A DNA stretch of 44,878 nucleotides from Protaetiibacter mangrovi (GTDB taxonomy: Bacteria > Actinomycetota > Actinomycetes > Actinomycetales > Microbacteriaceae). The first letter of the stretch is position 1. Every line of letters begins with the position of its first letter. The position numbers and the translations under genes are program-made. The stretch is from positions 42,261-87,138 of the forward strand of contig NZ_JANTHX010000002.1 in NCBI RefSeq assembly GCF_024752305.1. Direction: 5' to 3'. This document shows, piece by piece, positions 1-13,428 of the stretch. A model generated the notes under the pieces. That model did not search any database. It worked only from the letters and a program-made list of their open reading frames with translations, and was not told the origin of the DNA.

Positions 1-1
1 G

Positions 2-115
2 ATCCGACGGCAGGGCGGTGACTACGTGCTCGAGAAGCCCGACCGAGACGGGACACTCCGGCACACACCGCTGCCCTCCCGCAGCCCCGCACTCTCGCGA
101 CTCCTCACCGGATGA
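2..115 (+). CDS. Possible 3' end of an unidentified gene (partial)
   Basis: An open frame runs from the window edge to a TGA at 113-115 and would encode the last 37 residues of a protein (begins IRRQGGDYVLEK, ends SRLLTG). Third positions are about 78% G or C, which is compatible with coding in this genome but lower than in the clear genes nearby. I do not recognise the family. Support is indirect: the neighbouring gene at 376-642 points towards it, so a convergent arrangement with a repeat element between the two stops would be natural. It could equally be non-coding. Confidence 0.35.
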   Translation: MRRQGGDYVLEKPDRDGTLRHTPLPSRSPALSRLLTG

Positions 116-132
116 CCGGGCCCGGCGGCGGG

Positions 133-177
133 GGTCTCGAGACGCGTGCCGCTACACGGCGCGCTCCTCGACCACCT
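133..177 (+). repeat. 45-bp hairpin repeat, copy A (intergenic)
   Basis: The left arm reads ggtctcgagacgcgt and the right arm gcgctcctcgaccacct. The centre forms a stem (gcgtgccg with cggcgcgc, one G-T wobble) around a 5-nt loop. It matches the reverse complement of 13013-13057 at 43 of 45 positions and shares both arms with 13084-13128. It lies between the possible gene end at 115 and the stop of the minus-strand gene at 376. This is the usual location for REP-like palindromic elements. No transposase of the RAYT type is visible in the window. Confidence 0.85.
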
Positions 178-335: not shown

Positions 336-407
336 CCCTTCAGTGGTGGCGCAGCAGATCGATCAGCTGGGCCCCTCAGTGGTGGCGCAGCAGATCGATC
401 AGCTGGG
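332..407. repeat. 36-bp tandem duplication across a stop codon
   Basis: Bases 332-371 and 368-407 are direct repeats with a 36-bp period and a single mismatch (339 T against 375 C). The unit covers the last ten codons and the stop of the minus-strand gene at 376-642. A second, now untranslated copy of the sequence coding for QLIDLLRHH plus stop therefore lies directly behind the real one. The layout looks like replication slippage. Because 36 is a multiple of three, loss of the first stop would simply append another copy of the tail. Confidence 0.9.
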
Positions 408-11838: not shown

Positions 11839-13428
11839 GTGCGCGTCGTCGTCGTCGGCACCGGCATCGCCGGGCTCATCACCGCGTATCGCGCGAGCGC
11901 GCGCCACGAGGTGGTGCTCGTGACGAAGGCCGAGCTCGCCGAGTCGAACACCAAGTACGCGCAGGGCGGGATCGCCGCGGCGCTGTTCCCGGACGACTCC
12001 GCGGCGTCGCACATCGCCGACACGCTGCGCGCCGGCGCGGGGCTGTGCGACCCGGCGGCCGTCGAGATCCTGTGCACGGAGGGTCCCCAGCGGGTGCGGG
12101 ACCTCATCGCGCTGGGCGTCGAGTTCGATCGTGCGGCCGACGGCGAGCTGGCCCGTGGACACGAGGCGGCCCACTCGAACCGCCGGGTCATCCACGCGGG
12201 CGGCGACGCCACGGGGCTGGCGATCGAGGTCGCGCTGCTGCGCGCCGTGCGGGCGTTGGCCGTGGAGGTGCACGAGCACACCCTGATGCGCGACCTCGTG
12301 CTCGACGGCGGGCGGGTGGTCGGCATCGACGTGCTGGGGCCCGGAGGCGTTCCGGCCCGCATCGCCGCGGATGCCGTGGTGCTGGCGTCCGGCGGGGCCG
12401 GGCAGCTCTACCGGCACACGACCAATCCGGGGGTCACCACGGGCGACGGGGTCGCGGCCGCCTGGCGCGCGGGTGCCGAGCTCGCGGACGTCGAGTTCTA
12501 CCAGTTCCACCCGACGGCGCTCGCCGTGTCGGGCAGCCCGCTCGTCTCCGAGGCGGTGCGCGGCGAGGGCGCCGTGCTGCTCGACGCCGCCGGACGCCGC
12601 TTCATGTTCGACGTGCACCCCGACGGCGAGCTCGCGCCCCGCGACGTCGTCGCCCGCGGCATCGCGGCGGCGATGTCCGCTCAGGACGGAAACCCGGTGC
12701 TGCTCGACGCCACGGGGCTCGAGCGCGAGCACGGTGCCGGATTCCTCGCCGAGCGCTTCCCCTCGATCACCCGCGTCACCCGCGAGCACGGTCTCGACTG
12801 GACGGTGGAGCCGGTTCCCGTGACGCCGGCTGCGCACTACTGGATGGGCGGCATCCGCACCGACCTCGACGGACGCACGAGTCTGCCCGGGCTCTACGCG
12901 GTCGGCGAGGCCGCCTGCACGGGCGTGCACGGCGCGAACCGTCTGGCCTCGAACTCGCTGCTCGAGTCGCTGGTGTTCGCCTGGCGGGCGGCGGATGCGC
13001 TGGATGCGGTGGAGGTGGTCGAGGAGCGCGCCGCGGAGCGGCACGCGTCTCGAGACCACGCGCTCACGGTCGTCGAGGGCGCCGATCTCGAGACGCGTCC
13101 GCCTGCGGCGGGCGCTCCTCGATCACCTGCCAGAGCCGAGATCCAGGAGCTCATGTGGCGCGCGGTCGGTCTCGAGCGGGACGAGACCACGCTGCGCGCG
13201 GCCGTCGGCACCCTCGCGGACTGGGAGGTGCGGGGCGAGAGCTTCACGGCCCTCGAGGACCGAAACCTGCTCGACCTCGCGCGGATCGTGACCCACGCGG
13301 CGCTCGTGCGCGAGGAGTCGCGCGGAGCGCACGACCGCACCGACCATCCGGAGACCCGGGACGCCTGGGCGCATTCCCTCGGCTGGCGACTCGCCGCGGT
13401 CCCGGCGCTCGAGGGGGTGCCCGCGTGA
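11839..13428 (+). CDS. nadB: L-aspartate oxidase carrying two in-frame repeat elements
   Basis: The 529-residue flavoenzyme oxidises aspartate to iminoaspartate for NadA. It has the FAD loop VGTGIAGL (7-14), the SNTKYAQGGIAAAL block and the RRVIHAGGDATG loop. HYWMGGIRTDLDGRTSLPG and the GEAACTGVHGANRLASNSLLE signature are also present. The C-terminal helical domain starts near EIQELMWRAVG. Between these parts, residues about 392-430 are encoded by two inverted copies of a 45-bp hairpin repeat that also occurs at 133-177. The insert lies in a surface linker, so the enzyme is probably active. The GTG start was chosen by position; the stop overlaps the nadC start. Confidence 0.95.
   Translation: MRVVVVGTGIAGLITAYRASARHEVVLVTKAELAESNTKYAQGGIAAALFPDDSAASHIADTLRAGAGLCDPAAVEILCTEGPQRVRDLIALGVEFDRAADGELARGHEAAHSNRRVIHAGGDATGLAIEVALLRAVRALAVEVHEHTLMRDLVLDGGRVVGIDVLGPGGVPARIAADAVVLASGGAGQLYRHTTNPGVTTGDGVAAAWRAGAELADVEFYQFHPTALAVSGSPLVSEAVRGEGAVLLDAAGRRFMFDVHPDGELAPRDVVARGIAAAMSAQDGNPVLLDATGLEREHGAGFLAERFPSITRVTREHGLDWTVEPVPVTPAAHYWMGGIRTDLDGRTSLPGLYAVGEAACTGVHGANRLASNSLLESLVFAWRAADALDAVEVVEERAAERHASRDHALTVVEGADLETRPPAAGAPRSPARAEIQELMWRAVGLERDETTLRAAVGTLADWEVRGESFTALEDRNLLDLARIVTHAALVREESRGAHDRTDHPETRDAWAHSLGWRLAAVPALEGVPA
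13013..13057 (-). repeat. 45-bp hairpin repeat, copy B, inside nadB
   Basis: Read on the minus strand this copy matches the intergenic copy at 133-177 at 43 of 45 positions; both differences lie in the loop. On the plus strand it is translated within nadB as part of EVVEERAAERHASRD. It lies 26 bp from copy C and points the opposite way, giving a head-to-head pair. Confidence 0.9.
13084..13128 (+). repeat. 45-bp hairpin repeat, copy C, inside nadB
   Basis: Both arms are conserved (tctcgagacgcgt and gcgctcctcga). The centre is different but still forms a strong hairpin: gcgtccgcc pairs with ggcgggcgc around a TGC loop. Stem sequence has changed while pairing is kept, which suggests selection on the hairpin, or descent from a different subfamily. 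In nadB it is read as DLETRPPAAGAPRSP. Confidence 0.85.

Follow-up and report, generated by a model that had tools for sequence, protein, structure and literature searches.

The window analyzed here is a stretch of 44,878 nucleotides from Protaetiibacter mangrovi (G000:C6:42261-87138, in a genome of 2.98 Mb on 16 contigs) and includes nadB as well as three copies of one palindromic repeat (Table 1), one of them intergenic and two within nadB. The intergenic copy is 96% complementary to the first nadB copy over 46 nt (133-178 versus 13012-13057), while the two nadB copies are 81% complementary across 43 nt (13013-13055 versus 13086-13128, 30 nt apart) and lie in opposite orientation. Both are in frame in the 529-codon gene (11839-13428). 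The positions, the retained frame and the head-to-head pairing agree with a first-pass annotation of this sequence. As RNA, the nadB copies can pair as one long hairpin (13008-13133, -99.1 kcal/mol, z -9.2). The predicted hairpin would need opening by ribosomes, and the pair may, as the first-pass annotation suggested, affect nadB-nadC mRNA.

Table 1. Repeat copies and nadB features in the window
Feature	Position	Strand	Remarks
G-type palindromic repeat, intergenic	133..177	+	G000:C6:42390-42437; covariance model E 2.5e-21, the model being built partly from the same copy
nadB, L-aspartate oxidase, 529 aa	11839..13428	+	Pfam FAD_binding_2 residues 3-374, Succ_DH_flav_C residues 432-512
G-type repeat inside nadB, reverse orientation	13013..13057	-	translated as VVEERAAERHASRDH
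Spacer separating the two nadB copies	13058..13083	+	
Second nadB copy, GA-ended G-type variant, forward orientation	13084..13128	+	translated as DLETRPPAAGAPRSP
Repeat-encoded portion of the NadB interdomain linker, residues 392-430	13012..13128	+	AlphaFold, linker-length comparison

The repeat belongs to a dispersed family, as the first-pass annotation had supposed in calling it REP/BIME-like. A pattern of the two arms with a gap of 3-30 nt has 29 exact matches in the genome and the reversed-pattern control has none; a covariance model trained on this set yields 62 matches at E <= 0.1. The nadB copies score E 2e-21 and 8e-20, which is high by construction because the model was built from the same 29 copies. 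Across nine genomes of the genus there are 60, at least 150, 132, 96, 42, 24, 20, 2, and 0 matches at E <= 0.01 (42 in G008, 20 in G004, 2 in G007, and 0 in G001), and model matches at E <= 0.001 occur in 65 of 120 genomes sampled from the family. One arm base divides the 62 matches into 38 G, 16 C, and 4 T types, with 4 unassigned, counts from a model (R1) biased toward the G type on which it was trained.

Units measure 44-48 nt (G type) or approximately 40-42 nt (other units) and are predicted to fold into strong hairpins. The arms are invariant across the 29-copy set, by construction, while inner stems of different length and sequence all keep their pairing, and one outer-stem pair changes from G-C to A-T in 8 of the 29 copies. 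Stem changes on both sides occur in 34 cells versus 10.0 in shuffles (none of 500 shuffles as high), but the number of pairs with two-sided change shows no excess (5 versus 4.9; 340 of 500 shuffles); altogether three of five pairing measures beat all 500 shuffles and two do not, for a stem structure drawn after the sequences were inspected. The compensatory inner stems of the family bear out the earlier remark that the third copy in the window had changed its stem and kept its pairing. These units thus have the generic anatomy of REPs, short palindromes in many dispersed copies that form imperfect hairpins with compensatory stem changes, and the close mates in opposite orientation correspond to a BIME-like arrangement. 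Neither the 29-copy alignment nor the types contain a terminal unpaired GTAG. In the C and T types, GTAG occurs mid-unit beside the inner hairpin, where the G type has GGAG.

Several copies lie directly after stop codons, judged by eye without a count. Four repeat copies (window 1-120, L001, L006, L015, L017) follow one kind of gene 3' end (..LPSRSPALSRLLTG-stop or variants), so the gene was probably duplicated together with its repeat; we take it to be possibly of the DUF222/HNH type. A minus-strand reading frame has at its 3' end (window positions 341-406) a tandem duplication of a different unit, approximately 35 bp long and containing cagtggtggcgcagcagatcgatcagctggg.

In NadB, the repeat-encoded residues 392-430 fall between the two Pfam domains, as the first-pass annotation had placed them (between the FAD and helical domains). 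AlphaFold pLDDT is 51, 54, and 57 in the blocks spanning residues 391-420 and 71 in 421-430, versus a protein mean of 88.4. The linker (D386-E434) has 47 residues in the window genome, 27-39 in ten near repeat-free relatives and 46 in an eleventh, with a median of 39 over 67 rows, where repeat-free means lying outside the ten repeat-bearing rows (duplicates included), the truncated L095 is excluded, and the remaining 67 rows were classed by exclusion from that list rather than row by row. Because repeat-free relatives already have a shorter linker at this place, the net gain is approximately 8-20 residues instead of the 39 first proposed, and these lengths lead us to reject the reading of the nadB repeats as a clean insertion. 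The repeats are translated as NadB linker, but they did not create it and mostly replaced a variable linker that was there before. Within the linker, dN/dS is approximately 0.4-0.8, versus 0.12-0.18 in the rest of nadB. Judging from these sequence comparisons, the insert appears to behave as a tolerated spacer, nearly neutral and flexible.

The same repeat pair is found in nadB of three congeners (G008, G002, and G005) in various states of decay, a decayed remnant in G004, and a different repeat set in G003; nadB of G007, G006, and G001 has no repeats in the linker. In G016, a genome of another genus, related repeats are stacked in this linker.

Nine of the 62 matches in the window genome lie in genes and in frame, based on a codon-usage scan and translation. 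They include, besides the nadB pair, two in an Lhr-type helicase, two in a CydDC-like fusion, and one each in an ABC-F ATPase, pabB, and dus; Pfam confirmed the gene families except CydDC, which was named by eye. The CydDC-like copies lie at the apparent joint of the fused protein. The ABC-F copy (residues 520-534) falls in the gap from residue 447, where one Pfam match ends, to residue 545, where the next begins; the PabB copy (residues 164-179) precedes a match starting at 184. The main Lhr copy (residues 503-517) falls inside WH2_Lhr (453-569) and the Dus copy (residues 259-273) inside a match spanning 25-336, which rules out an interdomain linker as the site of every in-gene copy. Two further in-gene matches, in an RluD-like frame (C1:6663) and at C16:281150, were set aside as chance-like at 18-19 bits.

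The same protein regions have been entered repeatedly. Lhr of G003 and G005 contains an opposite-orientation pair in the same reading frames as nadB, and Lhr of G002 contains C-type copies at the same region. ABC-F of G006, G003, and G002 has other repeat types at the same place. None of these repeats is present in Lhr of G006 or G001 or in ABC-F of G007; the G007 Lhr and the ABC-F proteins of G005 and G008 did not enter the comparison. Hairpin repeats have thus become protein sequence at matching positions of NadB, Lhr, and ABC-F in different lineages. Lhr of the window genome is approximately 10-11 residues longer than in two repeat-free relatives, while a unit spans 16 codons. As these net gains differ from the unit lengths (10-11 versus 16 in Lhr, 8-20 versus 39 in NadB), the relatives of Lhr and NadB that were compared provide no clean empty site. 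In nadB, lhr, and the ABC-F gene, reverse G-type units read VVEER.. and forward units ..ETR.. or ..DTP.., suggestive of a frame bias in these three genes.

Another palindrome, GGTGTCACTTTCGGTCGC..GCGACCGAAAGTGACACC, and its look-alikes occur in the same protein regions, in Lhr of G004 and G008 (L340, L339) and in ABC-F of G001 (L343). The species with this palindrome have fewer of the repeats studied here (G004 20, G008 42) or none (G001).

In three genomes of the genus (G000, G002, and G003), repeats lie on both sides of a gene of approximately 95-100 codons whose product is a predicted single-domain GIY-YIG nuclease (PF01541, E 1.8e-16). The gene lies outside the window, so the first-pass annotation could not have seen it. 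It is present in six of the nine genomes of the genus; the three in which it was not found are the two genomes that have 0 and 2 repeats and G004, a 160-contig assembly with 20 repeats. A GIY match occurs in 32 of 120 genomes of the family sample. Model matches are found at 30 of the 42 GIY loci fetched, two of which are overlapping pieces of one gene (L283 and L286, the pieces of a broken GIY gene, were replaced by L330). Among control loci, 9 of 30 hold model matches, six of the nine being nadB loci with repeats within the linker, and among DUF222 loci only one of eight does.

Typing 56 GIY loci with regular expressions gave typed repeats on both sides for 22, on one side for 6, and on neither for 28. 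Since such typing misses other repeat types, we added a model-free test that compares the 450 nt to the left of a gene with the 450 nt to its right without knowledge of the repeats. Of 51 Microbacteriaceae GIY loci, 41 exceed the 99th percentile of dummies and 10 fail, versus 4 of 420 dummy windows, which were drawn from 76 nadB and 8 DUF222 loci, are mostly coding, and do not all come from Microbacteriaceae. Of 168 dummy genes set next to a known repeat, 5 passed; four of these represent the GIY locus, and the fifth is a repeat cluster. Some GIY genes of the family (L310, L313, L325, L301) are flanked by CCCTTCGACAAGCTCAGGG-like repeats, unlike the type studied here; the CCCTTCGACAAGCTCAGGG-like repeat is very common in bacteria.

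The GIY nucleases of the genus divide into three clades, each adjoining its own repeat type: G type for clade A (14 of 14 typed repeats), C type for clade B (11 of 11), and T type for clade C (29 of 29), or 54 of 54 overall. This match holds where all three clades coexist (G000, G002), and G067, of another genus, has three GIYs with three repeat types. In G016, the repeat type stacked in the NadB linker is the one that flanks the genome's own GIY gene. Random mixing within the five genomes that have more than one typed locus gives a joint log10 p of -16.7; as neighboring repeats may be local duplicates, the effective sample is nearer to three clades plus G067, and local duplication could be part of the cause of the type segregation. 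Copies of the three clades have dN/dS of approximately 0.06-0.24 (broken clade C copies L285 and L330 excluded), values that place the nucleases under purifying selection.

Comparison of loci for clades A and C showed that clade C occupies one locus in six species and that clade A has flanks common to species on one or both sides. In G006, the clade C gene (L278) is inverted in place relative to five sister species (L279, L282, L284, L285, L330) with the same outer flanks, as recombination between inverted repeats would give. The clade C copy of the window genome is broken and this genome has 4 T-type matches, which fits, as a single case and with a model that favors the G type.

Based on these observations, we consider it somewhat probable that this is a REP-like hairpin family with a dedicated GIY-YIG nuclease in the place of RAYT, an enzyme that would cut its cognate repeat and thereby spread it. 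In the genus, every GIY lineage has a single, matching repeat type on its flanks. The nuclease may cleave its cognate repeat in hairpin or cruciform form, and the unit would then be copied to new sites, often as an opposite-orientation pair, while the break is repaired. Most copies lie outside coding frames; a copy in a gene would survive only if it is in frame, free of stops, and situated in a tolerant region such as that of NadB. That the nuclease moves the repeats is what we infer; a nuclease bracketed by its own repeat type is a concrete, testable candidate for one class of such repeats. Weighing against it are the repeat-rich genomes where the query used found no GIY (9 of 25), G004 with 20 repeats in its 160-contig assembly, the 10 of 51 GIY loci that fail the flank test, the net gains in Lhr and NadB that fall short of the unit lengths, and a presence correlation that DUF222 matches. 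The genus offers natural contrasts: copy numbers range from 0 to at least 150, and nuclease lineages are present, broken, or not found.

The main rival, which we regard as doubtful, is that the nuclease exploits the repeats instead of moving them, as a passenger or homing-type parasite, and that another host process (replication slippage, template switching, or an unknown transposase) spreads them. Homing endonucleases are known to have the GIY-YIG domain, the loci of clades A and C are common to species, and 9 of the 25 genomes with at least 10 model matches have no GIY match with the query used. However, nuclease clade and repeat type match at both flanks, and matching flanks are missing from 20 of the 25 GIY-YIG loci evaluated in a phylum sample, so GIY genes in general are no gathering point for repeats. 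The correlation of GIY presence with repeat-rich genomes is not specific, since DUF222 correlates about as well (Fisher p 4e-5 versus 9e-6 for GIY, with three draws of 120 genomes treated as one set). The DUF222 correlation (24 of 25 repeat-rich genomes versus 51 of 95 others), together with four copies of the window genome whose common left flank finishes with one and the same gene end, led us to consider the DUF222/HNH protein, also multi-copy, as the mover. It was set aside on the flank test, for eight loci only: none of these genes, the best-scoring of other genomes, has matching repeats on both sides (one has a left flank of only 90 nt), and a model match occurs at just one locus, which makes such a partner very improbable.

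The anatomy of the units and their opposite-orientation pairs would also suit REPs mobilized by RAYT, and the first-pass annotation had expected a RAYT-like transposase. A Y1 transposase (Y1_Tnp) was not found in the window genome and is present in 1 of 199 family genomes, while 65 of the 120 family genomes sampled have model matches, and we reject this reading as one with hardly any remaining probability. That the repeats are selected host sequences (terminators, mRNA stabilizers, or nucleoid or gyrase sites), with accidental copies in genes, is in keeping with strong hairpins and the copies seen directly after stop codons, but it seems improbable given copy numbers that differ among congeners from 0 to at least 150, with G001 and G007 managing on 0 and 2, the coexistence of several types per genome, and in-gene copies in both orientations. 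High GC and a low-complexity linker might instead have produced the nadB similarity by coding-driven convergence. To this we attach next to no credence: there are 27 other exact-arm copies, 26 of them without a coding frame running through (codon-usage scan), the stems covary, the linker has the elevated dN/dS given above, and most NadB homologues lack these residues. The two refuting checks proposed in the first-pass annotation, on NadB homologues and on other copies in the genome, thus came out in favor of its reading. The GIY-YIG nuclease acting on its cognate repeat remains the reading that we favor.

The arrangement resembles the REP/BIME and RAYT pair (REPINs, REPtrons), with an unrelated enzyme. 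In both, short, dispersed, mismatched hairpins of more than one type coexist in a genome and have mates of opposite orientation, a gene conserved at a shared locus has its cognate repeats on its flanks, and many dispersed copies are non-autonomous. Unlike in those systems, the flanked gene here encodes a GIY-YIG protein of unrelated fold, no HUH/Y1 protein was found, and the terminal GTAG is lacking. The CGTC-tagged REPs, which include Rickettsia RPE-4 and RPE-6 (Di Nocera et al. 2013, PMC3733652), are likewise REP-like, mostly paired, and have intragenic copies, and they apparently lack a dedicated transposase, according to the sections of that article available to us; the same sections report them in five phyla, Actinobacteria not among them. 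Membership in that class is ruled out, as the 29-copy alignment has no CGTC at an end and shows another stem plan than the one described in those sections, a terminal unpaired CGTC with an 8-9 bp stem and a CCA-like tail.

Rickettsia palindromic elements (Ogata et al. 2000, as cited in excerpts of PMC10969869) are similarly translated within metabolic genes where the protein tolerates it, and, judged by reading frames, the comparison drawn in the first-pass annotation is an apt one; the Rickettsia elements are approximately 150 bp with nearly half in genes, as the excerpts state, whereas units here are 44-48 or approximately 40-42 nt with 9 of 62 in genes. Rickettsia is a valid precedent but not the only one: intragenic REPs, including pairs and one site used in different species, are on record for many species in the available sections of PMC3733652. 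The nadB repeats are therefore a new example of a published phenomenon, and the new part is the GIY-YIG partner. Open-licence PMC text yielded no link between GIY-YIG and REP-like repeats. Judged by title, the listed papers that mention GIY-YIG together with palindromic repeats concern editing, phages, introns, or other unrelated subjects; in the parts available, PMC9465073 has RAYT and GIY-YIG as separate rows of one pangenome table, and the co-mention in PMC4642659 is a name match.

The nuclease shares its catalytic domain (PF01541) with GIY-YIG homing endonucleases and with a single-domain family that we presume to be YhbQ/YazA-like, from which it differs in being flanked by cognate short repeats; yazA is among the matches of the GIY search. 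A GIY match occurs in 30 of 296 genomes of the phylum sample. From these, 29 loci were carried forward, and 25 could be evaluated after 4 had yielded no local match. The five that pass the flank test are the close relatives L363 and L364, L378 and L385 (family f41, with similar repeats), and L381, with a different-looking repeat; as the other 20 fail, matching flanks characterize certain GIY lineages and not the domain as such. In two genomes of another actinobacterial family, the GIY gene is flanked by TCATTCTGAGC..GAAGAATC repeats. In a plasmid collection, two Methylobacterium GIY loci have inverted repeats on their flanks, CCTTCGAGG..CACCTCAGGATGAGG, which recur 35 and at least 40 times in the two replicons. 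One of these GIY genes appears as two tblastn pieces and probably has a frameshift. GIY relatives in housekeeping neighborhoods on three plasmids, two from Sphingomonas and one from Radiobacillus, fail the flank test.

We tentatively suggest that single-domain GIY-YIG nucleases may be dedicated spreaders of a large class of bacterial palindromic repeats without RAYTs, an extension that could well prove too broad. If true, one enzyme family would account for several orphan repeats and for their leakage into proteins. By eye, the distant flanking repeats share a similar core, with TTCG or TCTCG in one arm and CTCA or CTCG in the other. The distant GIY genes L385 and L378, both from one other actinobacterial family, have TCATTCTGAGCGAAGCGAAGAATC-like flanking repeats.
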